Origin: Nocardiopsis listeri NBRC 13360
Lineage (GTDB): Bacteria; Actinomycetota; Actinomycetes; Streptosporangiales; Streptosporangiaceae
Direction: 5' to 3'
Assembly (NCBI RefSeq): GCF_001570765.1
Contig: NZ_BCSH01000020.1
Location: forward strand, 58,347-122,346
DNA: 64,000 nt
How positions within the stretch are numbered: the first letter of the stretch is position 1; the number at the start of each line of letters is the position of its first letter. Under the pieces are notes generated by a model, which made no database searches, was not told the origin of the DNA, and saw only the letters and a list, made by a program, of their open reading frames with translations. This document shows, piece after piece, positions 4,660 through 63,024 of this stretch. The position numbers were made by a program, and so were the translations under genes.

Positions 4660-6093
4660 TCAGCCCAGGGCGCTCATCACGTGCTTGACACGGGTGTAGT
4701 CCTCCAGGCTGTACGCCGACAGGTCCTTGCCGTACCCGGACCGCTTGAAGCCGCCGTGCGGCATCTCCGAGAGCAGGTCGCCGTGCGTGTTGAGCCACAC
4801 CGCGCCGAAGTCCAGCTCGGCACAGACCCGCAGGGCCCGCGCGTGGTCACGGGTCCACACCGACGAGGCGAGTCCCTGCTCGACCCCGTTGGCCAGTTCG
4901 ATCGCCTCGCTCTCGTCCGCGAAGCGCTGCACCGTCACGACCGGGCCGAAGACCTCCTCCAACACGATCTCGTCGTCGGCGCGCAGCCCGGACACGACCG
5001 TGGGCGCCAGGAAGAACCCGGCCTCGCCCACGCGGTGGCCGCCCGTCTCCACCCGCGCGTGGGCGGGCAGGCGCTCCAGCAGTCCGGTGACCCGGGCGAA
5101 CTGGTCGGCGTTGTTGAGCGGCCCGAAGTCGCTCTCCTGGTCAGAGGGCAGGCCGGTGACCTGAGCCGATGCCAGGCGGGACAATTCGGCGACGAACTCC
5201 TCGTGCGCCCCCTCCTGGACGATGACGCGGGTGGCGGCGGTGCAGTCCTGTCCGGCGTTGAGGAAACCGCCCGCGATCACACCGGCGGCGGCGCCGGCCA
5301 CGTCGGCGTCGTCGAAGACCACGGCCGGGGCGTTGCCGCCGAGTTCCAGGTGGACCCGCTTGATGTCGTCGGCGGCGGCCTTGGCCACCTGTGCCCCCGC
5401 CCGGGTCGAACCGGTGACCGATACCAGGCGCGTGGCCGGGTGCTCCACCAACAGGCGGCCGGTGTCGCGGTCGCCCACCACCGTGTTGACCACACCGGCG
5501 GGCAGTGCCCGCGCGGCGATCCCGGCGAGCAGAACGGTGGTGGTGGGCGTGCTCTCCGCCGGCTTGAGCACCACCGTGTTGCCCGCGGCCAGCGCCGGAC
5601 CGATCTTCCACACCGCCATCATCAACGGGTAGTTCCACGGGGTGATGCCCACGCACACGCCCACCGGTTCGCGGCGGATCCAGGAGGTGCGGTCGGTGGC
5701 GTACTCGGCCGCGGCCTTGCCCTCCAGGTGTCGGGCGGACCCGGCGAAGAATCGCAGGGTGTCCACGCAGAAGGGGATCTCTTCGTTGAGGAACGAGGCG
5801 CGCGGCTTGCCGGTCTCGCGGCACTCGGCGTCGGCGAACTCCTCGGCGCGTGCGGCCAGGCCGTCGGCGATCGCCAACAGGGCGTCCTGGCGTTGTGCCG
5901 GTGTGGCCCGGCGCCAGGTCCGGAAGGCGCGTGCGGCGGAGTCCATGGCGAACTCCACCTCGGCGGGCCCGCAGACCCCGGCCCGACCGGCCACCTGTCC
6001 GGTGACGGGGTCGACCAGGTCCAGGGTCGTCCCGCCCGTGGGGTGCAGGGGCCGACCGTCTACCAGGCTGTACAGGGGAGCGTTACTGCTCAT
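4660..6093 (-). CDS. Aldehyde dehydrogenase, aminobutyraldehyde/guanidinobutyraldehyde type
   Basis: This is a full-length 477-residue NAD(P)-dependent aldehyde dehydrogenase with Asn154 in TPWNYP, Glu250 in LELGGNAP and catalytic Cys284 in NAGQDC. It most resembles the gamma-aminobutyraldehyde/betaine-aldehyde group. As last gene of the minus-strand run it would oxidise the aldehyde made by the ThDP enzyme (4-guanidinobutanal) or 4-aminobutanal. ATG 6093 has AAAGGA 6 nt upstream. The NCS1 permease stop is 31 nt before it, so co-transcription is likely. Substrate is inferred from neighbours only. Confidence 0.85.
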   Translation of the reverse strand: MSSNAPLYSLVDGRPLHPTGGTTLDLVDPVTGQVAGRAGVCGPAEVEFAMDSAARAFRTWRRATPAQRQDALLAIADGLAARAEEFADAECRETGKPRASFLNEEIPFCVDTLRFFAGSARHLEGKAAAEYATDRTSWIRREPVGVCVGITPWNYPLMMAVWKIGPALAAGNTVVLKPAESTPTTTVLLAGIAARALPAGVVNTVVGDRDTGRLLVEHPATRLVSVTGSTRAGAQVAKAAADDIKRVHLELGGNAPAVVFDDADVAGAAAGVIAGGFLNAGQDCTAATRVIVQEGAHEEFVAELSRLASAQVTGLPSDQESDFGPLNNADQFARVTGLLERLPAHARVETGGHRVGEAGFFLAPTVVSGLRADDEIVLEEVFGPVVTVQRFADESEAIELANGVEQGLASSVWTRDHARALRVCAELDFGAVWLNTHGDLLSEMPHGGFKRSGYGKDLSAYSLEDYTRVKHVMSALG

Positions 6094-6124
6094 CGTGGTC
6101 CTTTGCTCGAAGTCGTGGGTGGTC

Positions 6125-7606
6125 TCAGTGGGCCGCGGTGGTCGGCGCGTCCTCGGTGGTGGGCACGGGGACCGATTCGGTCTCCTCTCGTGCCGGCACC
6201 AGGCGCGGGCCCTGGGGGCCGAACACCGAGCGCGGCTCGGGAAAGAGGAACAGCGCCGCCGGGTAGGCGATCGCGGCGGTCAGCAGCGCCACCGGGAGGC
6301 TGATGTCGATGCCCGCGGCCAGGTCCCCCAGGGGGCCGACCAGCAGTGGGGTGTTGGCGAACAGCAGGGCGGCCAGGGCGGACAGCAACCAGGCGGTCAT
6401 CGCACGCCAGTTGATCCCCGAGCGGAACCAGTACGCGCCGCCTCGGCGTCCCTCGTTGAACACCTGCAGGTCCTCGACCAGATAGTGGCCGCGCCGGAAC
6501 ACGTAGCCGGCCATCATGATCACCATCCATGGGGAGGTGAGCAGGACGATGAGGATCGCGAACGCGTTGATCGTTTCGACGAAGTCGAACAGGAACGTGC
6601 CCACGAACACCAGCGTCAGGGCCAGGAAACCCACCACGACGGTGCCCTGCACCCGGTTCAGACGCGGCACCAGAGAGGAGAAGTCCAGCCCGGTGCCGTA
6701 CAGCGCCGTCGTTCCGGTGGACAGCCCGCCCACCAGCGCCACCAGCAGCAACGGGAGCGCGTACCAGAAGGGGGAGACCGCGGCGAGCCCGGATACGTAG
6801 CGGTTGGGGTCGGCGACCAGGGTGGCGGTGAACAGACCGAACCCGAACGGCAGCAGGGTGCACAACTGGGCCAGGAACGGGGCCGCCAACTGTCTGCGGG
6901 TGGAGGTGGTGGCCGGGATGTAACGCGACCAGTCGCCCAGGAACCCGCCGAAGGAGACCGGGTTGGCCATCACCGTCAGCACGGCCAGTACCCAGGTGGG
7001 CCAGAACCCGCCCAGGATGTGGTCGCCGCTGCCGGCGAAGGAGGGGTCGAAGGCACCCCCGTAGGCCACGAAGCCCAGCAACATCAGGGCACTGCCGGCG
7101 ACCACGGCGATCTTGTTGATCAAAAGCATGAACTGGTAGCCGTACACGCACACCACGAACACCGCCACGGCGATCACACCGTAGGAGACGGCGCGCAGCG
7201 AGTCGCCGCCGGGCAGCCCCAGCCGATGCGCGGCGCCGACGATGGCGTCACCGCTCACCCACACCGAGATCGAGAAGAACGTGACGGCGGTGAGCAACGA
7301 CAGTAGGGAGCCCAGTGCACGCCCCACCACACCGAAGTGAGCCCCGGAGGAGACGGCGTTGTTGGTGCGTGTGCGGGGGCCGAACAGCGCCATGGGGGAG
7401 AGGATGAGCGCACCGAGCACCACACCGATCACCGTGGCGGCGGCCGCCGCGGCGAACCCCAACCCGTAGGCGATGGGCAGGGTGCCCAGGATGATCGTGG
7501 CGAAGGTGTTGGCGCCGCCGAAGGCGAGACGGAACAGGTCGAAGGGGCGTGAGGACTGGTCGGAGACCGGGATCGGGGCGACCCCGTGGGTCTCCACCAC
7601 CGTCAC
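6125..7606 (-). CDS. NCS1-family purine/cytosine-type permease
   Basis: This 493-residue protein has about 12 hydrophobic segments and the NCS1 layout: RLAFGGANTFATIILGTLP in helix 1, NPVSFGGFLGDWSRYIP in the middle and a hydrophilic C-tail. NCS1 proteins import nucleobases, hydantoins, allantoin or related cations with H+ or Na+. Here the substrate is probably the compound degraded by the flanking enzymes. The annotated GTG 7606 directly follows an in-frame TGA and has no ribosome-binding site of its own; the good Shine-Dalgarno belongs to GTG 7630, seven codons upstream (see leader entry). Expression therefore needs reinitiation, or the gene carries a nonsense change near its original start. 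Confidence 0.8.
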   Translation of the reverse strand: MTVVETHGVAPIPVSDQSSRPFDLFRLAFGGANTFATIILGTLPIAYGLGFAAAAAATVIGVVLGALILSPMALFGPRTRTNNAVSSGAHFGVVGRALGSLLSLLTAVTFFSISVWVSGDAIVGAAHRLGLPGGDSLRAVSYGVIAVAVFVVCVYGYQFMLLINKIAVVAGSALMLLGFVAYGGAFDPSFAGSGDHILGGFWPTWVLAVLTVMANPVSFGGFLGDWSRYIPATTSTRRQLAAPFLAQLCTLLPFGFGLFTATLVADPNRYVSGLAAVSPFWYALPLLLVALVGGLSTGTTALYGTGLDFSSLVPRLNRVQGTVVVGFLALTLVFVGTFLFDFVETINAFAILIVLLTSPWMVIMMAGYVFRRGHYLVEDLQVFNEGRRGGAYWFRSGINWRAMTAWLLSALAALLFANTPLLVGPLGDLAAGIDISLPVALLTAAIAYPAALFLFPEPRSVFGPQGPRLVPAREETESVPVPTTEDAPTTAAH

Positions 7607-7630
7607 TCAGGCGGGTAGGGACTGGGACAC
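7607..7630 (-). other. Seven-codon leader ORF abutting the NCS1 start
   Basis: GTG 7630 has AGGAG 7 nt upstream (7638-7642) and encodes V-S-Q-S-L-P-A followed by TGA at 7607-7609, directly followed by GTG 7606 of the permease in the same frame. Either this is a stop-start leader peptide, or it is the true N-terminus interrupted by a single nonsense codon. Confidence 0.5.
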
Positions 7631-7645
7631 GGCTGTACTCCTGAG

Positions 7646-7963
7646 GGCTGTACCACTGAGGGATGGGAGGAGCGGGGATTCAACGGGAAAGGGTCGGCAC
7701 ACGGCGTCGTCGACGCGTGCCGCCTTCGGAACGGAACGTCGATGCTCCGCCGGGGGCCTCGGTTCTCGTTCGGGGGAGAACTCGGATGTTGGGCTGCCCC
7801 GGGGCGCGCGGCGCCGTTGACGCGTGCCCCGAGGCCGGGGTCGACCGTCCGGTGCGGACGGCGGTGTCCCGGGACGGGGCCGGGAACCTGGTCAGGACAC
7901 GGCACCGTCCAGATGAGTGGGGGCGAAGCCCACCCGTCGCCCACCACCACCCTCAACGGACGC
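7646..7963. other. Intergenic region between ThDP enzyme and NCS1 genes
   Basis: No convincing gene is seen. An imperfect hairpin lies at about 7800-7831 (CGGGGC pairing with GCCCCG, with a bulged inner stem), possibly ending part of the upstream transcript. The region is long enough to hold a second promoter for NCS1-ALDH. Confidence 0.4.
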
Positions 7964-9580
7964 CTACGGCGCGAATATCTTTACGTGCATGGGCAGCACC
8001 ACCACGCTCGGGCCCGGGGCGGCCAGCGCGGCGGCCAGGTCGGCCCCCACCCGTTCCGGTGAGCTCGACGTGGCCGGGACCCCGAACGAGGCGGCCAAGG
8101 CCACGAAGTCGGGTCGGGCCAGCTCCGTGTGGGTGGCCTCCCCGAAGGCGCCCTCCATGTACTCGCGCAGGATCCCGTAGCCGCCGTCGTCGACGATCAG
8201 CCAGGTCACGTCCAGGTCGTGCTGGCGGGCGGTGGCCAGTTCCGCGATCGAGTACATGGCGCCACCGTCACCGGAGACCGCCAGCACCGGACCCCTACCG
8301 GTCGCGGCGGCGCCCAGCGCCGCCGGGAACCCGTAGCCGAGTCCGCCGGAGCCCTGCGCCGAGTGCATCGTGCCCTCACGCGGGTCCCAGCCCGACCACG
8401 CCCAGTACGCCAGCACGGTCATGTCCCAAAAGCTCGCAGCGTCATCGGGGAGCGCTTCGCGTACCGCGGCCAGAACGGACTGTTCGGCGGCCAGGTCCTG
8501 CCCGGCCAGCCGTTCGGCCACTCGGGACAGAACCCGGGCGACCTCGGCCTCGATCGCGGGGTCCTTCGCGCGGGGTCGCACCTTCGCGGCCAGCGCCTCC
8601 AGGATCAGGGCTGCGTCGCCGTGGATCCCCAGAGCCGGGACGTTGGACTCCAGCTTGCCGAGGTCGGCCTCCACCTGCACCACACGCCCCCGGGGCGCCA
8701 TGGTGTGGTAGTTGCTCGACAACTCGCCCAGACCCGAACCCACCACCAGGAGCACGTCGGCGTCCTCCAGGTACTCGGTGGTGTACCGGTCCTCGATCCA
8801 CGAGCGCAACGAGAGCGGGTGTTCCCACGGGAAGGCGTCCTTGCCGCCGAAGGTGGTGGCCACCGGAGCACGAAGGGCCTCGGCCAGCTCCAGCAGCGCC
8901 TTCCGTCCGCCCGAGCGGCTCACCCCGCCACCGGCCAGCACCACCGGACGTCGCGCCCCGTCCAGCCACCGAGCCGCCTCGTCCACCACCTCCGCGCGTG
9001 CAACGAGCGGGGCCGGCGCCGCGGACACGTCCGTCACCGGCGGCACCACGATCGGCTCCAACAGCACGTCCTGCGGGATCTCCACCAGTACCGGGCCCGC
9101 GGGCGCGCGGGCGGCGGTCCGCCAGGCCTCGGCCAGCGCCGAGGGGATCTGGGAGGCGTGCCGGACAGTGAACGTCGACTTGGTGACGTCGCCGAAGGAG
9201 GCCGCCTGTTCGGGCAGCTCGTGCAGGTAGCCGTGGCGGCCACCGCCCAGCCCCGCCCGCGGCACCTGGCTGCTGATCACCAGTACCGGAGCCGAGGCCG
9301 CCCGGGACTCCTGCAACGAGGCCAGGGTGAGCAGCGCGCCGGGCCCGGTGGAGACCAACAACGGGGTGACCTCACCGGTGACCCGGGCGTGCCCGTCCGC
9401 GGCGAAGGCCGCGTTGTTCTCCACCCTGGCCGACACGAACCGCAGCCCGGGCGCTCGACGCAGCGCGTCGAACAGTCCCAACGCGTGCTGACCGGGGATG
9501 CCGAAGCACACCCGGGACCCCAACGCGGTCAGGGTCTCGGTGACCAGGTCGCCACCGTTGCGCGGCGCGCTCTCGCCCAT
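7964..9580 (-). CDS. ThDP-dependent decarboxylase, acetolactate-synthase fold (AruI-like)
   Basis: This 538-residue protein has the three-domain ThDP decarboxylase layout. The cofactor Glu54 is in SARVENNAAF, a central nucleotide-like domain contains VVLAGGGVSRSGG, and the C-terminal SGDGGAMYSIAEL...DDGGYG is the ThDP/Mg motif. It lacks features of a committed branched-chain acetolactate synthase operon. Next to a ureohydrolase and an aldehyde dehydrogenase, the best fit is 2-ketoarginine decarboxylase (AruI of the Pseudomonas arginine transaminase route), giving 4-guanidinobutanal. ATG 9580 follows GGAGGG inside the ureohydrolase tail, with 5 nt between the genes. Confidence 0.75.
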   Translation of the reverse strand: MGESAPRNGGDLVTETLTALGSRVCFGIPGQHALGLFDALRRAPGLRFVSARVENNAAFAADGHARVTGEVTPLLVSTGPGALLTLASLQESRAASAPVLVISSQVPRAGLGGGRHGYLHELPEQAASFGDVTKSTFTVRHASQIPSALAEAWRTAARAPAGPVLVEIPQDVLLEPIVVPPVTDVSAAPAPLVARAEVVDEAARWLDGARRPVVLAGGGVSRSGGRKALLELAEALRAPVATTFGGKDAFPWEHPLSLRSWIEDRYTTEYLEDADVLLVVGSGLGELSSNYHTMAPRGRVVQVEADLGKLESNVPALGIHGDAALILEALAAKVRPRAKDPAIEAEVARVLSRVAERLAGQDLAAEQSVLAAVREALPDDAASFWDMTVLAYWAWSGWDPREGTMHSAQGSGGLGYGFPAALGAAATGRGPVLAVSGDGGAMYSIAELATARQHDLDVTWLIVDDGGYGILREYMEGAFGEATHTELARPDFVALAASFGVPATSSSPERVGADLAAALAAPGPSVVVLPMHVKIFAP

Positions 9581-9585
9581 GTCGA

Positions 9586-10545
9586 TCAGCCCTCCGTCTT
9601 GCGCTGGTGGTTCAGGGCCAGCAGGCTCACCAGGTCGTAGGCCACGTGCGAGGCCGCGGTGGAGGTGATCTGGGCGTGGTCGTAGGCCGGGGCGACTTCC
9701 ACCACGTCGGCGCCCACCAGGTTCAGGTCGGCCAGCCCGCGCAGGATCTCCAGCAGCTCTCGGCTCGTGATCCCGCCGGCCTCGGGGGTACCGGTGCCCG
9801 GGGCGTGCGCCGGGTCCAGGACGTCGATGTCCACCGACACGTACAGTGGCCGGTTCCCGATGCGCTGACGCAGCGCGTCGGCGATCTCGTCCACGCCCTT
9901 GCGCAGCACGTCGGCGGCGGTGACGATGCCGAACCCGAAGCGGCGATCGTCCTCCAGGTCCCGCTTGCCGTACAGGGGGCCGCGGGTACCCACGTGGGCG
10001 ATCGCCTCGGTGTCGAGGATGCCCTCCTCCACCGCGCGTCGGAACGGGGTGCCGTGCGTGTAGGGCTCACCGAAGTAGGTGTCCCAGGTGTCCAGGTGGG
10101 CGTCGAAGTGCAGCATGGCGATCGGGCCGTGCACGCGGTACAGGGACCTGAGCAGGGGCAGTGCGATCGTGTGGTCGCCGCCCAGGGTCACCAGGCGGGT
10201 CCCGGCGCGCACGAACTCCGAGGCGCCCTGGTCCAGGGTCTCCACGGCGTCCCCGACCGAGTACGGGTTCACCGCGATGTCGCCGCCGTCCACCACCTGG
10301 AGGCGCTCGAACGGGGACACGTCCAGGCCGGGGTTGTAGGGGCGCAGCAGTCGGCTGGCCTCACGGATCGCCGAGGGGCCGAAACGGGCGCCGGGACGGT
10401 AGGAGACACCGGTGTCGAAGGGCACCCCGACCACGGCGATGTCGGCTCGTTCCACCTGGTCGAGGCGGGGCAGGCGGGCGAAGGTCGCCGGGCCCGCGAA
10501 GCGCGGTACGAGGCTGGAGTCGGTGGGTCCGATCGGTGCGTTCAT
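9586..10545 (-). CDS. Ureohydrolase, agmatinase/guanidinobutyrase family
   Basis: This 319-residue protein shows all Mn-binding signatures: [14 protein letters not shown] with [10 protein letters not shown], and [19 protein letters not shown]. The family removes urea from guanidino substrates. Agmatinase, guanidinobutyrase and guanidinopropionase cannot be separated by these motifs. Paired with the ThDP enzyme and ALDH, 4-guanidinobutyrate to GABA plus urea is favoured. ATG 10545 (AGGA 9 nt upstream) is preferred over ATG 10554, whose only Shine-Dalgarno-like bases touch the codon. It is tightly linked to the downstream ThDP gene and lies 37 nt after the symporter stop. Confidence 0.85.
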
Positions 10546-54474: not shown

Positions 54475-55407
54475 TCACCCGGTCAGGTCGGGGATGAGCT
54501 CCGGACCCACCCGGCACACGTACTCGCGGAACAACGCCACCGCGGGGGGCTCGTAACCACCGCCCGAACCCTCACGAGGCCACACGATGCCCACCGGCCG
54601 CTCGGCCTCGCCATCGATGATGACCAGCTCCACCGTGCCGCCCAGCGGACCCCCGGGACGGGCCGGCAGCACCGACACCCCCAGCCCCGCCGCGACCAAA
54701 CCCCGGGCCGTACTGATGTCGTCGGCCTCGAACGCCACCGTGGGCGTGAACCCGGCCCGATCACTGAGCCGATCGGTCAGATGCCGCACCCCCCGACCCG
54801 ACTTGAGCAGGATGAAGTCATCGCGCGCCGCCGCCAACGACACCTCGTTCCGCCCCGCGAGCGGGTGTCCCTCGGGCACCACCAAACGCAGGTACTGGGT
54901 CTGCAACACCTGGGAGACCAACCCCTGTCCCGAGGGAAGGGGAGAGGTCAACGCCAAGTCCGCGCCGCCCGACGACAACCGCCGCAGCGACTGCGCCCAC
55001 GGTTCCTGGGTCAGGGTGAAACGCACCCCCGGGTGCTCGGCGCGAAAGCCACGCAACAGCACCGGCACCACCTCCACGCCCAGAGTGGGCAGGAACGTCA
55101 ACGCCACCCGGCCCTCCTCGGCGCCGGTGAGCTCGGCCACACCCTGGCGCAGATCCTCCAGCGACCGCTCCACGTGCGGGAGCAGCGTCCGCCCCGCCCG
55201 GGTCAGTCGGATCCCCCGCCCGGTGCGTTCGATCAACGCGATGCCCAATTCCTCCTGAAGCCGGGCCAAAGCCCTGCTCAGCGTGGGTTGTGGCATGTTC
55301 AGGGCCGCGGCCGCGTGGGTGATGTGCTCGGTCCTGGCGATGGCCGACAACATTCGCAATCGGGGCGCCAACACCTGGGTCAGGTCGTCCACCTCAACGC
55401 TATCCAT
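54475..55407 (-). CDS. LysR-family regulator of the adjacent MFS gene
   Basis: This 310-residue protein has an N-terminal HTH (MLSAIARTEHITHAAAALNMPQPTLSRALARLQEELG in segments) and a two-lobed effector domain (VRFTLTQEPWAQSL, GLGVSVLPARPGG). ATG 55407 is 69 nt from the divergent MFS gene, the classic LysR layout. The last 35 codons are duplicated as a decayed fragment at 51.2 kb. It likely activates the exporter in response to its substrate. Confidence 0.88.
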   Translation of the reverse strand: MDSVEVDDLTQVLAPRLRMLSAIARTEHITHAAAALNMPQPTLSRALARLQEELGIALIERTGRGIRLTRAGRTLLPHVERSLEDLRQGVAELTGAEEGRVALTFLPTLGVEVVPVLLRGFRAEHPGVRFTLTQEPWAQSLRRLSSGGADLALTSPLPSGQGLVSQVLQTQYLRLVVPEGHPLAGRNEVSLAAARDDFILLKSGRGVRHLTDRLSDRAGFTPTVAFEADDISTARGLVAAGLGVSVLPARPGGPLGGTVELVIIDGEAERPVGIVWPREGSGGGYEPPAVALFREYVCRVGPELIPDLTG

Positions 55408-55476
55408 GCAGATCAGTATGCATGAACGTGAAATCATGTATTGGACGTATGAAAGCGGGCTTCCTAGCGTTGAACC
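55408..55476. promoter_or_regulatory. LysR/MFS divergent promoter
   Basis: A 69-nt AT-richer gap contains TATGCAT and, 12 nt later, ATGTATT, an imperfect dyad consistent with a LysR activation site. Confidence 0.4.
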
Positions 55477-56706
55477 ATGACCGTGACCAGCGCACCGCCT
55501 TCGACCGACCCCAGACCCAGGGCCGGTACCCCGGCCTACCGGCGCACGGTCATCGCCCTGATCGCCGCAGCCGTCGCCACCTTCGCCCAACTGTGGTCGG
55601 TCCAACCGATCCTGCCCGCCATCGCCTCGGGGTTCGGCACCTCCGCGGGACAAGCCGCGCTCACCGTCTCCCTGGCCACCGGCGGCCTCGCCGGCTTCAC
55701 CCTCGTCTGGAGCGGTGTCGCCGACCGCCTCGGCCGCGCGCGCGTCATCGGTCTCTCCCTCCTGCTGGCCATCGTGCTGGGCACCGCCGCGCCCTTGGCC
55801 ACCGAACTCTGGACACTGCTGCTCCTGCGCACCCTCCAGGGCGCCGCCCTGGGCGGGGTGTCGGCAGCCGCCGTGGCCTACCTCGCCGAGGAGATCCACC
55901 CCCGCGACGCACCCAAGGCCACCGGCCTGTACATCGCCGGCAACCCCCTCGGCGGCATGGGCGGACGTCTCCTGGCGGGTTTTGCCGCCGAACACGGCGG
56001 CTGGCAGTGGGGGATCGCCGCCAACACCATCCTGGGGCTGGTCGCCCTGGTGGTGTTCGTCCTCGTCCTGCCTCGACAGACCAAGGGCGCGCCCACCACA
56101 CGCCCCGCCTCGACCGACGACACCCTCGGAATGGGCAGTCGACTCAAGGCCGCCATGACCACCCCCGGCCTGGTGCCCATGTACGCCCAGGCACTCCTGC
56201 TGATGGGCGCGTTCATGGCCGTGTACAACGTCCTGGGGTTCCGCCTCACCGACGAACCCTTCGGGCTCTCCCAGGCCGTGGCGTCACTACTGTTCCTGTC
56301 CTACACCGCAGGCATGCTCGGCTCGGGACTGGCCGGATCGGCCACCCTGCGTTGGGGGCGCTACGGGGTACTCACCACCGCCACCATCCTGCTCCTGGTC
56401 GGACTCGGCGGGCTGTTCACCACCTCGGTGATCCTCCTGCTGGCCACCCTTTTGCTGCTCACCTTCGCGTTCTTCTGCGCCCACGCCACCGCCTCGGCCT
56501 GGGTGGGCTCCCACGCCACCACGGGTCGGGCGCAGGCCACAGCCGTCTACACGCTCGCCTACTACCTGGGCGCGAGCCTGTTCGGGTGGTTGGGAGGCGT
56601 GGTCTACGACGCCGTGGGCTGGAGCGGGACCGTGGCCTTGGCCATGACCCTCACCGTGCTCGCGGGCCTGTGCGCCCTGCGCCTGCGCCGACTGCCGGCC
56701 CCCTGA
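55477..56706 (+). CDS. MFS transporter (YnfM/arabinose-efflux type)
   Basis: This 409-residue protein has 12 predicted helices. The motif between helices 2 and 3, WSGVADRLGRARVIGLS, is the MFS A-motif; IAGNPLGGMGGRLLAG is the motif C-like region. Such carriers export small molecules with H+ antiport. It ends 3 nt from the convergent thioesterase. It may serve export for the neighbouring diketopiperazine locus, but its LysR partner suggests an independent unit. Confidence 0.87.
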   Translation: MTVTSAPPSTDPRPRAGTPAYRRTVIALIAAAVATFAQLWSVQPILPAIASGFGTSAGQAALTVSLATGGLAGFTLVWSGVADRLGRARVIGLSLLLAIVLGTAAPLATELWTLLLLRTLQGAALGGVSAAAVAYLAEEIHPRDAPKATGLYIAGNPLGGMGGRLLAGFAAEHGGWQWGIAANTILGLVALVVFVLVLPRQTKGAPTTRPASTDDTLGMGSRLKAAMTTPGLVPMYAQALLLMGAFMAVYNVLGFRLTDEPFGLSQAVASLLFLSYTAGMLGSGLAGSATLRWGRYGVLTTATILLLVGLGGLFTTSVILLLATLLLLTFAFFCAHATASAWVGSHATTGRAQATAVYTLAYYLGASLFGWLGGVVYDAVGWSGTVALAMTLTVLAGLCALRLRRLPAP

Positions 56707-56709
56707 CCG

Positions 56710-57489
56710 CTACATCGGACGCACCGTGAGGCTCTGCTCGGCCCGGCCGACCTGCCCCCGCCGATCGTGCAAGACCGAACTGGTCAGCCCCAACCCCGTG
56801 GGGCCGAAGGCCACCGTGGTGTCCAGCCCGACCCAGTGCCCCTCGGGCTGTCGGAACAGGTGCACGGTGAGGTCGACGTTGGGGAACATCCACTCCAGGG
56901 GCGACTCGCGCACCGCGACACCGTTGGCGGTGTCGAGCAGCTTGACGAAGGAGGCCACCGGCCCGGCCTTCTCGCCCGCCACCAGCTCCACGTCGGTGGA
57001 GAGCCACGCCGCGCCACGTCCGGGCACGGCGGGAGCGATCGGCCGCGCGTCCAGCGAGGCGATGTACCCGCCGGGCCAGATCTCGCTGAGCGGCTTCTTC
57101 TCCAGGCCCTCCGGATCGGGCAGGGGTTCGGCCGCGCCGCCCTCGACCGCGCCGGTCTCGCCCGCCACGAGCGACCACGCCCGCGCCCGCACGGCGGTGC
57201 GGTCCCCGATCTGGACCACCGCCTCGACCAGCTCGATGGTGCGCCCGGGGCGGATGGTGTTCACCTCGACGCGGCACTCGTCCATCGCCAGCGTGCCCAG
57301 GATGTCGAAGCCGATCCGGGAGAGTTGAAGCCCCCGCTCGGCGGTGTGGGTCTCGATGGCGTGGGTGATGAGGCCGCCCAGTGGGCTGAAGTGCTGCTCG
57401 GCGGTGTTCCAAGCGCCGCTGACGTGCTCGGTGGGAACGAAACGGTCGTCGCCCACTCGGACGAAGTAGGCGTTCTGGGACTGGGACAA
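56710..57489 (-). CDS. Thioesterase-family (double hotdog) protein
   Basis: This 259-residue protein resembles actinobacterial TesB-like acyl-CoA thioesterases of the double-hotdog type: SPLGGLITHAIE near residue 37, LSRIGFDILGTLAMDECRVEV and VNTIRPGRTIELVEA, then the second half with WMFPNVDLTVHLFRQPEGHWVGLDTTVAFGPTGLGLTSSVLHD (in pieces), where the conserved Asp/Thr/Gln-type residues lie. TTG 57489 has AGGAG 7 nt upstream. Possible substrate is an acyl-CoA. It lies downstream of the methyltransferase gene on the same strand (132-nt gap), but a role in that pathway is not implied by chemistry. Confidence 0.75.
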   Translation of the reverse strand: MSQSQNAYFVRVGDDRFVPTEHVSGAWNTAEQHFSPLGGLITHAIETHTAERGLQLSRIGFDILGTLAMDECRVEVNTIRPGRTIELVEAVVQIGDRTAVRARAWSLVAGETGAVEGGAAEPLPDPEGLEKKPLSEIWPGGYIASLDARPIAPAVPGRGAAWLSTDVELVAGEKAGPVASFVKLLDTANGVAVRESPLEWMFPNVDLTVHLFRQPEGHWVGLDTTVAFGPTGLGLTSSVLHDRRGQVGRAEQSLTVRPM

Positions 57490-57621: not shown

Positions 57622-58653
57622 TCAGGCGAGCACCCCTTCGACCACGCTCACCCCGCGTCCCGGCACGATGCGGTTCAGACGGAGCCCGGCACGCTCGAAC
57701 AGTTCCGCGGACCGGCTCGGGGTCCGCTGCTCCCCACCACAGTGCACGAGCATGCTCAGGTCCATGAACCTGGCCGTCCGCGCCGGCTCGGTGCCCTGGG
57801 GCATCACCACCTCGGCGAGCAGGATCCGCCCGTGGGGGAGCATCGCCCGGCGGCAGTGCGTGAGGATCTTGGCGGCGTCGGCGTCGTTCCAGTTGTGGAT
57901 GACGCTGGCGAGCAGGTAGGTGTCACCACCGGCCGGCACCGCGTCCAGGAAGTCGCCGCCCTCGACACGGCAGCGCTCGGAGAGTTCCCCTTGACAGAGC
58001 GCGGGTTCGGCCCCCGCGATGACCTCGGGCCGGTCGTAGAGCACGCCCCGCAGGTGCGGGTTGGCCGACAACACCAAGGACAGCAGGCGTCCGCGCCCGC
58101 CCCCGACGTCCACCAACAGCCCGCTGGAACCGAAGTCGTAGTCCTCGGTCAGGGATCGGGTGAGCTGCGCGGAGATGTCGCTCATGCCCTGGTCGAAGAG
58201 CGCGGCGACCTCGGGGTGACGACGCATGTACTCCCAGACGAGAACACCGTGGACGGACTCGAACACCGGACCTCCCACACGCACGGCGTCGGCCAGGTGG
58301 GCCATGGTGGACCGCTCTGTCGGGCTCCCCAACCAACGGGCGTACCCGCGCATGGACGCGGCGGAGTCCTCCCGTAGCGCCTCGCCCAGGTCGGTGAGGG
58401 CGAAACACCGCTCCGGGGACTCCCGGACCAGATCCAGATCGGCGCAGGCGCGCAGCAGCCGGTGAAGGGCCTGGGCGTCGGCGCCGACCCGAGAAGCGAT
58501 CTCTGCCAGGGGCGAGGGTTCCCTGGACATGGCATCGGCGACGCCGAGCTCGGCCGCGGCACCGACGGCCGCCGCGACCCAGCTGGAGGTGATCAGCTCG
58601 AACAGCCGGACGGCGGAGACGTCGAGCGGAGCGGAAGCGGTGGGGAGCGTCAC
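57622..58653 (-). CDS. SAM methyltransferase of the diketopiperazine locus, probably O-methyltransferase
   Basis: This 343-residue protein has the dimerisation/winged domain and a C-terminal Methyltransf_2 domain. LLVDVGGGRGRLLSLVLSANP is the SAM-binding loop and VIHNWNDADA carries His253, the general-base position in COMT-type O-methyltransferases. It diverges from the oxidase genes by 94 nt. The intact His suggests methylation of a phenol such as the Tyr side chain of the cyclic dipeptide. GTG 58653 gives the normal N-terminus; the open frame upstream is discarded. Confidence 0.83.
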   Translation of the reverse strand: MTLPTASAPLDVSAVRLFELITSSWVAAAVGAAAELGVADAMSREPSPLAEIASRVGADAQALHRLLRACADLDLVRESPERCFALTDLGEALREDSAASMRGYARWLGSPTERSTMAHLADAVRVGGPVFESVHGVLVWEYMRRHPEVAALFDQGMSDISAQLTRSLTEDYDFGSSGLLVDVGGGRGRLLSLVLSANPHLRGVLYDRPEVIAGAEPALCQGELSERCRVEGGDFLDAVPAGGDTYLLASVIHNWNDADAAKILTHCRRAMLPHGRILLAEVVMPQGTEPARTARFMDLSMLVHCGGEQRTPSRSAELFERAGLRLNRIVPGRGVSVVEGVLA

Positions 58654-58734
58654 GGGGGTGGATACCTTTCGCTGATTTCCTCGAACGGAGGTGTTTCTGA
58701 GGGCGGAAGGGCCCCGGGAAACCGAGCGACACGT

Positions 58735-58740
58735 TACATT
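58735..58740 (+). promoter_or_regulatory. -10 box TACATT of the alb-type operon
   Basis: TACATT ends 7 nt before GTG 58748, so the cyclodipeptide operon appears to start with a leaderless gene. Confidence 0.55.
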
Positions 58741-58747
58741 ACTCCAG

Positions 58748-59326
58748 GTGGTTGACCCAATACAGAACGTGGAGATCCCTGTGGAGGTCCCTGAACCCGA
58801 ACCCCAGGACCAGGTTCGGCGGACACTGCGTGTACTGAACACACGACGGGCCGTTCGCTCCTTCAACGACGAATCCGTGCGGGACGACCTCCTGGATCCC
58901 CTGCTGGACAGCATGCTCGCCGCACCCTCCGCCTCCAACAAACAGGCCTGGGCCTTCGTCGTCGTACGACGACCGCGAACCCTGCGCCTGATCCACGCCT
59001 TCGCCCCGGGCATCATCGAACGCCCGCCGCTGATCGTGGTGGCCTGCTTCGACCACGGGCGGTCCGTGGGAGGAGGCGCCTGGGACGAGGGCATGCTCTG
59101 CGTGGCGATGGCCGTGCAGAACCTCCTGCTGGCGGCACACGCCCTCGAACTGGGAGGGTGCCCCACCGCCAGCTTCCGCAAGAGCCCGGTGCGCAGGTTC
59201 CTGAGACTCCCCCAACACCTGGAGCCACTACTCCTGGTGTCGATCGGACACCCGGCCCCGAACCCGCGCACCACCGCACCCCGACGCGACCGGAACGAGG
59301 TGATCAGTCATGAACACTGGGGCTGA
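58748..59326 (+). CDS. albA: Cyclodipeptide oxidase subunit A (AlbA-like, nitroreductase fold)
   Basis: This 192-residue flavoprotein of the nitroreductase family has LNTRRAVRSFNDESV near residue 35, APSASNKQAWAFVVVRRP for FMN contacts and AMAVQNLLLAAHALELGGCPTASF. With subunit B it forms the filamentous cyclodipeptide oxidase that introduces alpha,beta double bonds into diketopiperazines, as in albonoursin synthesis. GTG 58748 is fixed by the leaderless -10 box. The 3' end overlaps the next gene by 17 nt. Confidence 0.88.
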   Translation: MVDPIQNVEIPVEVPEPEPQDQVRRTLRVLNTRRAVRSFNDESVRDDLLDPLLDSMLAAPSASNKQAWAFVVVRRPRTLRLIHAFAPGIIERPPLIVVACFDHGRSVGGGAWDEGMLCVAMAVQNLLLAAHALELGGCPTASFRKSPVRRFLRLPQHLEPLLLVSIGHPAPNPRTTAPRRDRNEVISHEHWG

Positions 59327-59627
59327 CCAGTGCCGAATCGACGAGGAACTGTTGTTGCTCGCGGCCTACCTGATCAGCAGCGGCCGAGGCCTGCTGGAGG
59401 AACCCCGTGACTACGGGCCACTGCGTTGCCTGGACGCCGCCCGCCGCGTCCTGCGCCTGCGGGCCAGGGCCGGTGGAGCCCAGAGCCCGGAACTGACCTC
59501 CCTGAAGGAGCGCATGGACGAGGTCATGTGCGGTGCGATGGTCGATCGGGACCTGGCCGCCCTGCTCGACGAACTGTGTGATCGACTCGCCGCCGTCGTG
59601 GAGGAACCCGGTGCCGTCACCGCCTGA
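59310..59627 (+). CDS. albB: Cyclodipeptide oxidase subunit B (AlbB-like)
   Basis: This 105-residue helical protein sits between the A subunit and the synthase, exactly where AlbB lies in albonoursin-type clusters. It overlaps both neighbours by 17 nt, and ATG 59310 has GAGGTGA upstream. Motifs include ELLLLAAYLISSGRGLLEEP, YGPLRCLDAARRVLRL and MCGAMVDRDLAALLDELCDRL. AlbB-like subunits have no catalytic signature but are required for oxidase assembly and activity. Confidence 0.88.
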   Translation: MNTGADQCRIDEELLLLAAYLISSGRGLLEEPRDYGPLRCLDAARRVLRLRARAGGAQSPELTSLKERMDEVMCGAMVDRDLAALLDELCDRLAAVVEEPGAVTA

Positions 59628-60318
59628 GATCCCACGCCTGAACGACACCGAGGAGGTCTTTCAGGCCCGGCCCTTCACCCCCGGATGTGGACGACTCGTC
59701 GAACGCGGCGAGCACGCGCTCATCGGGATCAGCGCCGGCAACGGTTACTTCAGCCAACACAGGATCGCCCAACTCCTGGAATGGACGGGCCGGCGCTTCG
59801 GCGCGGTCGACCTGCTCTACGCGGACCTGCACATCGACACCATGCACCGGGCGGCCGGCGCCGAACAGGCACAGGCCTCCAGGCGGGCCTGTCGGTCGCT
59901 CAGGGACGTGCGCCGACGGATTCGACGCGCGATGGAGGCGGTGCGGGTACCCGCACGGGTTCGGTGCCTGGCGTTGTCGGAGACCGTGGACACCCCCGGC
60001 TACCGATCGGCCGACGAACGCGTCGAACGGGCCATGAGGGAGCACCCGGCCGTGGAACGCGCCTGTGAGGACCACGTCCGGCGGATCATCGCCCCCGAAC
60101 CGGACCCGGACGGGGCCCGGTTCCGAGCCGGTCTGTCCTACCTGCGCGCGGAACTGCCCTTCCTGCTCAACACCCCGGAGGTCCTGTCCGTGGACACCTC
60201 GGTGTGCTGCTACCACGATCTCCTCCCGGTCCTGGTGGGGCTGCGAAGGGAGACCTCCTGCCTACATCCCGGGCAGGGACACCTCGTGCTCAAGCCCCTC
60301 ACCGCACCGTCCAACTGA
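59611..60318 (+). CDS. albC: Cyclodipeptide synthase (AlbC-like, NYH subfamily)
   Basis: This 235-residue enzyme uses two aminoacyl-tRNAs to make a cyclic dipeptide. The catalytic Ser41 is in IGISAGNGYFS, with Asn44 three residues on; Tyr177 and Glu181 are in SYLRAELPFLL, and Tyr201-His202 in CCYHDLL. Asn44, Tyr201 and His202 assign it to the NYH subfamily. GTG 59611 has GGAGGAA 5-6 nt upstream and overlaps albB. The pocket residues suggest, but do not prove, aromatic substrates such as Phe and Tyr, as in the related Nocardiopsis enzyme. A strong hairpin follows directly. Confidence 0.92.
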   Translation: MPSPPEIPRLNDTEEVFQARPFTPGCGRLVERGEHALIGISAGNGYFSQHRIAQLLEWTGRRFGAVDLLYADLHIDTMHRAAGAEQAQASRRACRSLRDVRRRIRRAMEAVRVPARVRCLALSETVDTPGYRSADERVERAMREHPAVERACEDHVRRIIAPEPDPDGARFRAGLSYLRAELPFLLNTPEVLSVDTSVCCYHDLLPVLVGLRRETSCLHPGQGHLVLKPLTAPSN

Positions 60319-60346
60319 GCGGGCCCCGACACCTGTCGGGGCCCGC
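60319..60346. terminator. Terminator closing the alb-type operon
   Basis: A perfect 13-bp stem (60319-60331 with 60334-60346) directly after the synthase stop is shared with the convergent methyltransferase, which ends 6 nt beyond. Confidence 0.8.
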
Positions 60347-60351
60347 TTCCA

Positions 60352-61377
60352 TCACGGCATCGGACGCACGTCCATGATCGACTCACCGTCCGGAACCCGA
60401 CGCACCTCGTGCAGGGACAAGCCCACCGAGGCGAGGAGCGCCTCGTACTGCTCACGGGTGCGCAATGGAGCCCCATAGAGCACGAACATGCTCAGACTCA
60501 TGGCCTCCAGGAACTCGCTCGGTCGATCCTGCTCTGGGAGGTGACCCACGATCAACAAGCGCGAGGTCGCCCCCATCGCCTCGCGAACGTTACGCAGGAT
60601 CAGTGCCGCGTCGGGATCGGCCCAGTTCTGCATCACCCGAGCCGCGAGGTAGACGTCCGCGCCCCTGGGTACACCCTCGAAGAAGTCGCCACCCACGATT
60701 GAGCACCGATCCTCGACCCCCGCCTCACGTAGAAGTGGAGGAGCACCCTCCACCACGTGCGGAAGGTCGAAGAGGATCCCCCGCGTCGACGGGCACGCGC
60801 GCAGCACGGCCGCGATCGTGGCGCCCTCACCACCACCCAGATCCACCATCGTCCCGGTTTCCGCCGGATCGATCTCGCGCAGCAACGGCGCGGCCAGGGT
60901 GGAGGAGTTCATGGCCCGGTTGAACACGGCGGCGGCCGCTTCCCGCTCACTCAGGTAGGCGAACAGCTCCTGACCGGTGTGGATCGCGAAGGCCGAGCGG
61001 TCCGAAGTCACCGAGTGGCCCAAACGAGTCCAGGCCTGGAAGAAGTCGCCGTGCGTGCACATACGGAACAGGTCCCGCAGCCCTTGGGGATCGTCGATAC
61101 GCAGGTGGTCGCCTGCCGAGCTCAAGGAGAAGAGACCGGGAGAAGGCTCCTCGACCAGCCCGGTCGCGACCGCCGCACGCACGAGGACCAGCAGGCGTTC
61201 CTCGGGCACGGTGAGTGCCCGGGCCACGTCGTCGAGGGGGCGTGGGGGACCGGCCAGCTCTTCGACGACACCGAGCTCGATCAGTGCCGCCACGGCGTGC
61301 AGCAACATCGCGGAGGAGACGATCCTGGCCAGTGGCCGGTCGGTTCGTTCGGGCGGGATGGTGTCCGGTCGCTCCAC
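60352..61377 (-). CDS. SAM methyltransferase of the diketopiperazine locus, possible N-methyltransferase
   Basis: This 341-residue Methyltransf_2 protein has an N-terminal dimerisation/winged helix and SAM loop TMVDLGGGEGATIAAVLRACP. The general-base His of O-methyltransferases is replaced: VMQNWADPDA has Gln250 where the other enzyme has His253. Loss of that base fits methylation of a ring amide nitrogen, for which other family members also dispense with it. GTG 61377 has AAGGGAA about 7 nt upstream. It converges on the synthase. The pair of differing methyltransferases points to both O- and N-methyl product. Confidence 0.82.
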   Translation of the reverse strand: MERPDTIPPERTDRPLARIVSSAMLLHAVAALIELGVVEELAGPPRPLDDVARALTVPEERLLVLVRAAVATGLVEEPSPGLFSLSSAGDHLRIDDPQGLRDLFRMCTHGDFFQAWTRLGHSVTSDRSAFAIHTGQELFAYLSEREAAAAVFNRAMNSSTLAAPLLREIDPAETGTMVDLGGGEGATIAAVLRACPSTRGILFDLPHVVEGAPPLLREAGVEDRCSIVGGDFFEGVPRGADVYLAARVMQNWADPDAALILRNVREAMGATSRLLIVGHLPEQDRPSEFLEAMSLSMFVLYGAPLRTREQYEALLASVGLSLHEVRRVPDGESIMDVRPMP

Positions 61378-61665: not shown

Positions 61666-61747
61666 TACAGCGTCCCGCGCCCGAAGCAGGGGGGTCGCTT
61701 CGCGCGTCCCCCTCACGTTCCACCTTTCCCCGGAGGTGACGCCGTGA
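61652..61747 (+). CDS. Possible 31-codon leader ORF coupled to HTH gene
   Basis: GTG 61652 lies in the loop of hairpin 2, with AGGAAGG 9-10 nt upstream. The frame stays open to TGA 61745-61747, which overlaps the HTH start as GTGA. The predicted peptide is basic, begins MHPKPTASRARSRG and has no known domain. Overlap and position suggest translational coupling. Confidence 0.4.
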   Translation: MHPKPTASRARSRGVASRVPLTFHLSPEVTP

Positions 61748-63024
61748 GCTACGCGACCATCGTCCGAGGCCGCTTCGGTGGCGATCGATTCACCAGGGTG
61801 CTCAACGCCGCGGTCCGTGACAAACGCCTGTCCTACAAGGCCCGTGGTCTCCTCATCTTCATCGCTTCGCACCGTGAAGGGTGGGGCATCGGCATCGAAC
61901 AGCTCATCGCCAACTCACCTGGTGGTGCGGGCGCGATCCGCTCCGGACTCAAGGAACTCGAAGCCGTCGGCTACCTGCGCCGTTACCGGGTCCGCGACGA
62001 ATTGGGGTGCCTCGGTGGTGCCTACTGGGTGGTCACCGACGACCCCGAGTCCCTGCCGGAACGAGTCGCCGAGCTCGCCCGCTCCCTGGAGGGAAAGGAC
62101 CTCGTCCGCCTGCAAAGCAGCAGTTCAGAGCCTAAGTGCGATTTTCCAGGGTTGGATAACCTACCGGAGGAAAATCGAACCCCTAAGAAGACCAACCACA
62201 AGAAGACCAATACACAAGAACAAGGGGAGGAGGAGGGCGCGCGGGCGCGCGCGAGCGAGCTCCCCGCCACCGATGCCGACGGCGACCAGTGGGGCGTCCC
62301 CGAAGCCGAACGGCCCGCCCCCGACCGGGGCGGTCTACTGGAACGCACCGTCATCCCCCAGATCGCCGAGGAGACCGGCCTGGGACTCGAACCCTGGCAG
62401 CATCGCCGCCTGGTCCTGGAGCATCTGCCCGCCGCGTTCCGGGCCGTCAAGGAGCTGGCCGACGACCGGGTGGGCCCCACCGAACTCCTGGAGTGGCTGC
62501 GGTCAGACCACGACACCACGATGTCGCTGTACGCGGTCCTGTCCACCCGTTGCCGACCCGGTCATCTCGGTGAGGCACTGCCGGTCTGGGTCGCCCGCAA
62601 CCGCACTCCTGGCGGCCTGCCCGGTCCTTCCGTGCCCAAGGTCCCTCGCCCGCGCCGAGAACCGGCCCCGATGGCCGACGGAGATCCCTTCACCCGGGCC
62701 GGTGCACCGCCCACGTGCACGGTTCACCTCGGTATCACCCTGACCGCCGACGCCACCGGCCTGCGCACCCGATGCCACAGGTGCGAGGACCTTCCCGGCC
62801 CCGAACCCTTCGCCACTTTGGACGAACCGGCCGGCGCCCTGATGGGTGTGCTCGACGAGGGCCTACCGGATACCGCACCAGCACCGCCCGAACATTGTGG
62901 GGACCGTTCCTGTCACGAACAGCGCCGACACGTCATTCGCTTCAACCCACAGACCGAGGTTCACGAGGACCTCGGCCCCTGCCCGCGCTGCCACCCCGAT
63001 CGGGTTCGAGAAGGCGTTCGATGA
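61744..63024 (+). CDS. Helix-turn-helix protein of accessory-element type
   Basis: This 426-residue protein has an N-terminal winged HTH (about residues 5-105): DKRLSYKARGLLIFIASH then IRSGLKELEAVGYLRRYRVRD. A charged, low-complexity linker follows (TPKKTNHKKTNTQEQGEEEG) with lower G+C than its surroundings. The C-terminal half has scattered Cys/His pairs (CTVHLG, CHRCED, CGDRSCHEQ, CPRCHPD) that could hold zinc. This layout is common in replication-initiator-like or plasmid/ICE HTH proteins in Streptomyces and Nocardiopsis. GTG 61744 has GGAGGTGA just upstream. Its target is unknown. Confidence 0.72.
   Translation: MSYATIVRGRFGGDRFTRVLNAAVRDKRLSYKARGLLIFIASHREGWGIGIEQLIANSPGGAGAIRSGLKELEAVGYLRRYRVRDELGCLGGAYWVVTDDPESLPERVAELARSLEGKDLVRLQSSSSEPKCDFPGLDNLPEENRTPKKTNHKKTNTQEQGEEEGARARASELPATDADGDQWGVPEAERPAPDRGGLLERTVIPQIAEETGLGLEPWQHRRLVLEHLPAAFRAVKELADDRVGPTELLEWLRSDHDTTMSLYAVLSTRCRPGHLGEALPVWVARNRTPGGLPGPSVPKVPRPRREPAPMADGDPFTRAGAPPTCTVHLGITLTADATGLRTRCHRCEDLPGPEPFATLDEPAGALMGVLDEGLPDTAPAPPEHCGDRSCHEQRRHVIRFNPQTEVHEDLGPCPRCHPDRVREGVR

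Follow-up and report, generated by a model that had tools for sequence, protein, structure and literature searches.

The closest described relatives of the locus presented here are small gene clusters that make and modify cyclodipeptides. The nocazine cluster of Nocardiopsis dassonvillei DSM 43111 (Ndas_1145-1149) has five genes. Its cyclodipeptide synthase (CDPS), Ndas_1148, makes mainly cyclo(Phe-Tyr) (cFY) and cyclo(Phe-Phe) (cFF), and of its two methyltransferases Ndas_1149 is reported to O-methylate the tyrosine side chain and Ndas_1145 to modify the ring, at either O or N (PMC4159871). Nocazines have two aromatic residues, one or more of them in dehydro form, and one or more methyl groups on O or N (PMC4159871). 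The cyclodipeptide oxidase of this cluster, Ndas1146/Ndas1147 (NdasCDO), is a filament with bound flavin mononucleotide (FMN), available as structure 9EXV (PMC11760959). Nocardiopsis prasina has a related system, CDPS-Np/CDO-Np, in which the synthase product is mainly cFY (PMC7044140, PMC5816076), accounting for 87% and tetradehydrogenated by CDO-Np; the word methyltransferase is absent from PMC7044140 and PMC7487605. The albonoursin cluster of Streptomyces noursei (albA-albB-albC) contains oxidase subunits and an NYH-type synthase of the same families as those described below. It is not known to have a comparable methyltransferase pair. The locus in question occupies positions 57622-61377 of a 64,000-nucleotide stretch of Nocardiopsis listeri NBRC 13360, referred to here as the window. 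It is very probably an orthologue of the nocazine cluster, and its predicted products are cyclodipeptides built from two aromatic amino acids and modified by dehydrogenation and methylation. One of its two methyltransferases belongs to a family without the usual catalytic residues.

Five intact reading frames lie within this span in the order methyltransferase, oxidase subunit A, oxidase subunit B, synthase, methyltransferase, just as the preliminary description of this DNA had it, and family assignments by Pfam and NCBIfam profile matches have E values far beyond chance. MT1, an S-adenosylmethionine-dependent methyltransferase of 343 amino acids (aa) and the Ndas_1145 orthologue (57622-58653, minus strand, GTG start), matches PF00891 (Methyltransf_2) at 7.8e-46. 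The flavin subunit of the oxidase, CDOA (58748-59326, plus strand, Ndas_1146 orthologue), has a nitroreductase match at 2.2e-22 and a likely GTG start at 58748, with the open frame extending back to 58691; the small subunit, CDOB (59310-59627, plus strand, Ndas_1147 orthologue), matches DUF6092 at 6.8e-30. The NYH-type synthase, CDPS (59611-60318, plus strand, GTG start, Ndas_1148 orthologue), matches PF16715 at 1.6e-69 and the NCBIfam model tRNA_cyclodipep at 5.2e-73, and is the only CDPS match in its own genome. MT2 (60352-61377, minus strand, GTG start, 341 aa, Ndas_1149 orthologue) matches PF00891 at 2.2e-36. The minus-strand orientation of both methyltransferase genes is absent from the text of the preliminary description, as is the hairpin between CDPS and MT2 described below.

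One genome of the comparison set (G008) codes for CDOA and CDOB proteins that contain the printed 9EXV stretches of Ndas_1146 and Ndas_1147 letter for letter, and its locus is read as that of N. dassonvillei; given the direction of Ndas_1146-1148, its left gene is taken as Ndas_1145 and its right gene as Ndas_1149. The comparison with the nocazine proteins that had been proposed as a check finds counterparts of all five window proteins, in the same order and directions. Identities are 68% (MT1), 68% (CDOA), 55% (CDOB), 60% (CDPS), and 61% (MT2), and both window methyltransferases are much more similar to their respective counterparts than crosswise (33 to 35%), with MT1 and MT2 about 33% identical to each other. 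The 17-base overlap of CDOB and CDPS is also shared and is the same in all nine loci compared. Apart from belonging to another species, the N. dassonvillei locus differs in its CDOA/CDOB overlap, which is 20 bases there and in seven of the nine loci in total, but 17 bases in the window and in Nocardiopsis alkaliphila. The overlaps joining CDOA, CDOB, and CDPS suggest coupled translation. The same five-gene block in N. prasina is closer to the window than that of N. dassonvillei (68 to 73% identity), and the N. alkaliphila copies are 76 to 85% identical to the window proteins.

The best solved relative of the window CDPS is AlbC (3OQV; 2.1e-47), and the preliminary description was right that the synthase retains its catalytic residues: equivalents of AlbC S37, N40, Y128, Y178, E182, Y202, and H203 are present at all seven positions checked, with Ser41 as the catalytic serine. 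Two pockets hold the amino acids, P1 (AlbC positions 33, 35, 65, 67, 119, 185, 186, and 200) and P2 (152, 155, 156, 159, 204, 206, and 207) (PMC5816076). These read LGLALFLC and HRIPDLP in the window, LGLALLLC and HHVAAMP in Ndas_1148, and LGLTLYLC and HQIGELP in the N. prasina copy, so that P1 differs from that of Ndas_1148 at one of eight positions. P1 position 8 is Cys rather than the Asn that selects Tyr (PMC5816076). In an unrooted tree of 24 synthases, the window CDPS falls within a group of 11 rows that includes the N. prasina enzyme (support 99/99) and an 18-row group (100/98) that includes Ndas_1148 and leaves outside AlbC, whose P2 pocket is MAVNITP, and two Trp-like synthases (from genomes G029 and G018); the 16-row fork holding Ndas_1148 closest has support of only 85/90 and is drawn open. 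A placement away from the Phe/Tyr clade, which had been named as grounds for doubting the assignment, is thus not what the tree gives. The catalytic residues, the position beside characterised Phe/Tyr synthases, and the lack of Asn at P1 position 8 put the enzyme in the cFX group of NYH synthases. Because pocket and tree place it with the cFY-making Ndas_1148 and CDPS-Np, its main product is likely, as a prediction, the Phe-Tyr cyclodipeptide.

The oxidase subunits are similarly well conserved. Among solved structures, the top two phmmer matches of CDOA are 9EXV chain A (1.8e-74) and AlbA (8UC3; 8.3e-49), and CDOB has just two, 9EXV chain C (3.8e-34) and AlbB (8UC3; 1.7e-24). All nine NdasCDO residues mapped in CDOA (Arg28, Arg29, Arg32, Ser58, Asn59, Glu117, Cys121, Ser145, and Arg181; positions from PMC11760959) are identical in the window, where they include Cys118, Ser63, Glu114, and Arg33/34/37; in CDOB, five of six are identical, the sixth being Phe39, which is Leu38 in the window, and Tyr35 and Met77 are kept. 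With overlapping genes for its two subunits, the Cys that links FMN, and conserved Ser and Tyr residues, the pair fits the AlbA/AlbB type. CDOA/CDOB is expected to be an active FMN-linked oxidase.

The two methyltransferases were claimed in the preliminary description to be functionally distinct, and they do fall into two separate families, for which different activities have been published in N. dassonvillei (PMC4159871). They also differ at the catalytic columns. In COMT, His269 is the base and Glu329 supports it; Asp270 and Glu297 are their neighbours (PMC12013660). At these four columns (His269, Asp270, Glu297, and Glu329), MT1 has His253, Asn254, Glu281, and Gln309, and MT2 has Gln250, Asn251, Gly278, and Leu305; MT2 thus has neither the catalytic His nor the supporting Glu residues that mark the COMT type. 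The MT1 pattern of His, Glu, and Gln is the same in all eight MT1 locus rows counted; the row from a Nocardiopsis eucommiae-like genome, in which the gene is split over two frames, is excluded. More widely, among the best 120 of 1,039 MT1 homologues (from 7,998 candidates scored), the His is present in 27 of the 28 members of a near group set apart by rank (P0149-P0174, P0177, and P0217) and in 89 of the other 92. The MT2 alignment of 115 homologues and 10 locus copies (7,995 candidates scored) divides differently. Its 33 rows at least 54% identical to the window MT2 (23 protein hits and 10 locus copies), here called the MT2 family, are invariant for the Gln, Asn, and Gly (33/33; 30 rows are distinct), whereas the 92 more distant relatives have His in 85 cases and, at the Glu297 column, either Glu or Asp in all 92. 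Ndas_1149 carries the same changes as the window MT2. Judged from these alignments, the usual catalyst is missing from the phenol methyltransferase type, and the His is present in the ring type. The His by itself is no proof of O-methylation, as it also occurs in anthranilate N-methyltransferases of plants (PMC12013660).

This lack of catalytic residues in the MT2 family is the one feature of the locus that may come as a surprise to specialists. The catalytic residues of Ndas_1149 are not discussed in section 3.1 of PMC4159871 or in the excerpted text of PMC5767969, and no mention of their loss was found in the literature covered, which is a partial set that does not include the nocazine paper of Giessen 2013 (Chem Biol). 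Potential bases that are conserved in the MT2 family and rare in its relatives include His27 and His279 (each in 32 of 33 rows). The structure model of MT2 is well ordered (pLDDT 92.7, pTM 0.87), and the folds closest to it among solved structures are those of DtpM, LaPhzM, and MmcR. Further down is DnrK, the carminomycin 4-O-methyltransferase, which was compared by fold and has the same one (TM 0.79 to 0.83, with 29 to 31% identity in the structural match), although its substrate is an anthracycline. For DnrK, proximity and desolvation have been proposed as the means of phenol O-methylation, which makes it the published precedent (PMC9539859, PMC4426599).

Taken together, a pathway can be proposed in which CDPS would join Phe and Tyr from their tRNAs, via an acyl-enzyme on Ser41, to give mainly cyclo(Phe-Tyr); a filament of CDOA and CDOB with FMN covalently bound to Cys118 would dehydrogenate the alpha-beta bonds, with loss of two or four hydrogens; MT2 would methylate the tyrosine phenol; and MT1 would then methylate a ring amide on O or N. 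MT2 is predicted either to need no base or to use one at another position, and the most likely mechanism is the one suggested for DnrK, based on proximity and desolvation. Prior dehydrogenation would conjugate the phenol with the ring and so lower the phenol pKa, aiding MT2. The lowered pKa of a conjugated dehydro-tyrosine phenol follows from general chemistry. We tentatively suggest, as a proposal with somewhat less than an even chance of being correct, that the whole Ndas_1149-type family methylates its phenol without the His-Glu pair, has a Gln-Asn-Trp plus Gly-His signature instead, and relies on prior tyrosine dehydrogenation or on a relocated base (such as His279 or His27). If so, the missing catalyst of MT2 would be a record of the order of the pathway; its partner MT1, acting on the ring amide, retained the His. 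The two enzymes are paralogues that would work side by side on one small scaffold, the His-bearing one expected on the amide ring and the His-less one on the phenol, and the pair makes O- versus N-selectivity and the need for a base directly testable within one pathway.

The same residues could be read another way, with MT2 catalyzing a different reaction (C- or N-methylation) or being degenerate: Gln250, Gly278, and Leu305 stand in place of the COMT His and two Glu residues, and SibL, a C-methyltransferase of similar fold, also has no His (PMC4426599). We consider this quite improbable, as Ndas_1149 has the same changes and is reported to O-methylate tyrosine (PMC4159871), DnrK provides the base-free precedent (PMC9539859), and the invariance of Gln, Asn, and Gly in all 33 rows, together with the well-ordered model, indicates that MT2 is probably under selection. 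MT2 as a phenol methyltransferase also bears on the identity of the cyclodipeptide, for if the same enzymes had another main product, such as Phe-Leu, Phe-Met, or a Trp-containing cyclodipeptide, a tyrosine O-methyltransferase-type MT2 would in the absence of Tyr have no phenol to act on.

Such a change of main product, to one of these or to Tyr-Tyr, is unlikely, but several observations speak for it and against a simple transfer of the Phe-Tyr assignment. P2, the pocket of the second amino acid, differs from that of Ndas_1148 at five of seven positions, and P2 specificity rules are not settled (PMC5816076). P1 has Ala at position 4, like many Trp-binding synthases, and its positions 3 and 4 (LA, also found in Ndas_1148) are one step from the Trp-linked VA and IA. 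Ndas_1148 itself is promiscuous, making at least five products besides cFY and cFF; N. dassonvillei also yields cyclo(dehydro-Phe-Leu) (PMC6780544), the Nocardiopsis potens enzyme makes mainly cyclo(Phe-Met) (cFM) and cFF (PMC5816076 Table 1), and three relatives (P0024, P0027, and P0028) are labelled cyclo(Tyr-Tyr) synthases by their source. Against this, the tree places the window CDPS alongside its N. prasina and N. dassonvillei counterparts and separates it from the Trp-like synthases of G029 and G018, and its P1 does not have the Asn of cyclo(Tyr-Tyr) (cYY) synthases. A silent or non-functional cluster in this N. listeri strain is similarly unlikely. A scan of the MT1/CDOA intergenic region, covering that one promoter type, gave no sigma-70-type match, and a Nocardiopsis xinjiangensis synthase (CDPS 65) was inactive in E. 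coli, possibly owing to a wrong start codon (PMC5816076 Table 1); the synthase copy assigned to that species is 56% identical to the window CDPS. All five frames are intact, however, and the synthase and oxidase active sites are conserved. The assignment to a nocazine-type, Phe-Tyr-based pathway is preferred, with the reservation that each of its steps is carried over from orthologues and their order is taken from N. dassonvillei.

The cluster is already published and is spread through the genus, so the window adds another member: one more species to a known genus-wide pathway, together with one synthase with a readable pocket. Ndas1149-type genes are reported in Nocardiopsis only, and Ndas1145 and Ndas1149 are each found in 15 clusters (PMC5767969). 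Among 40 genomes of the genus, including that of the window, 13 have a CDPS match, and 10 (10 of the 13 with CDPS) contain the CDOA-CDOB-CDPS-MT2 block in the same arrangement, nine of them with MT1 as well. The exception is a genome matched to Nocardiopsis sp. HNM0947 (G007, locus L022), which has CDOA, CDOB, CDPS, and MT2 but no MT1 within the 15 kb examined, and ring methylation is therefore predicted to be lacking there. At 5983-9756 of locus L021, from the N. eucommiae-like genome (G009), both CDOA and MT1 are broken into two reading frames, possibly by sequencing error, because the assembly is rated 84% complete. Two further loci (L019 and L020) contain a different synthase, 43 to 44% identical and with a Trp-like pocket (LGVALFFS), and have no match to the other four nocazine genes in the stretch examined. 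One of the two lies near a contig end, and L020 extends about 1 kb beyond its synthase. Genome G001 has one partial synthase match.

The divergent genes MT1 and CDOA are separated by 94 bases (58654-58747), which likely carry the promoters of both. At the other end, a perfect 12-bp GC inverted repeat with a 4-base loop (60319-60346; RNA fold -29.8 kcal/mol) fills most of the 33 bases that separate the stop codons of the convergent genes CDPS and MT2, and is probably a shared terminator ending both transcripts; it has no T-run, and was not listed by a terminator scan that requires one. Upstream of the cluster are a thioesterase gene (56710-57489), a major facilitator superfamily (MFS) transporter gene (55477-56706), and, divergent from the latter and transcribed in the opposite direction, a LysR-type regulator gene (54475-55410). 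The flanking genes were considered as cluster members and rejected, as they have no counterparts in the stretches of some kilobases compared on either side of the loci in other genomes, except for an MFS end in N. alkaliphila. The window ends where the contig ends. Beyond the MT2 end of the cluster, a gene at 61744-63024 (plus strand) codes for a 426-aa protein without a match in Pfam or NCBIfam; it appears helix-turn-helix-like by eye and adjoins the cluster both here and in N. alkaliphila.

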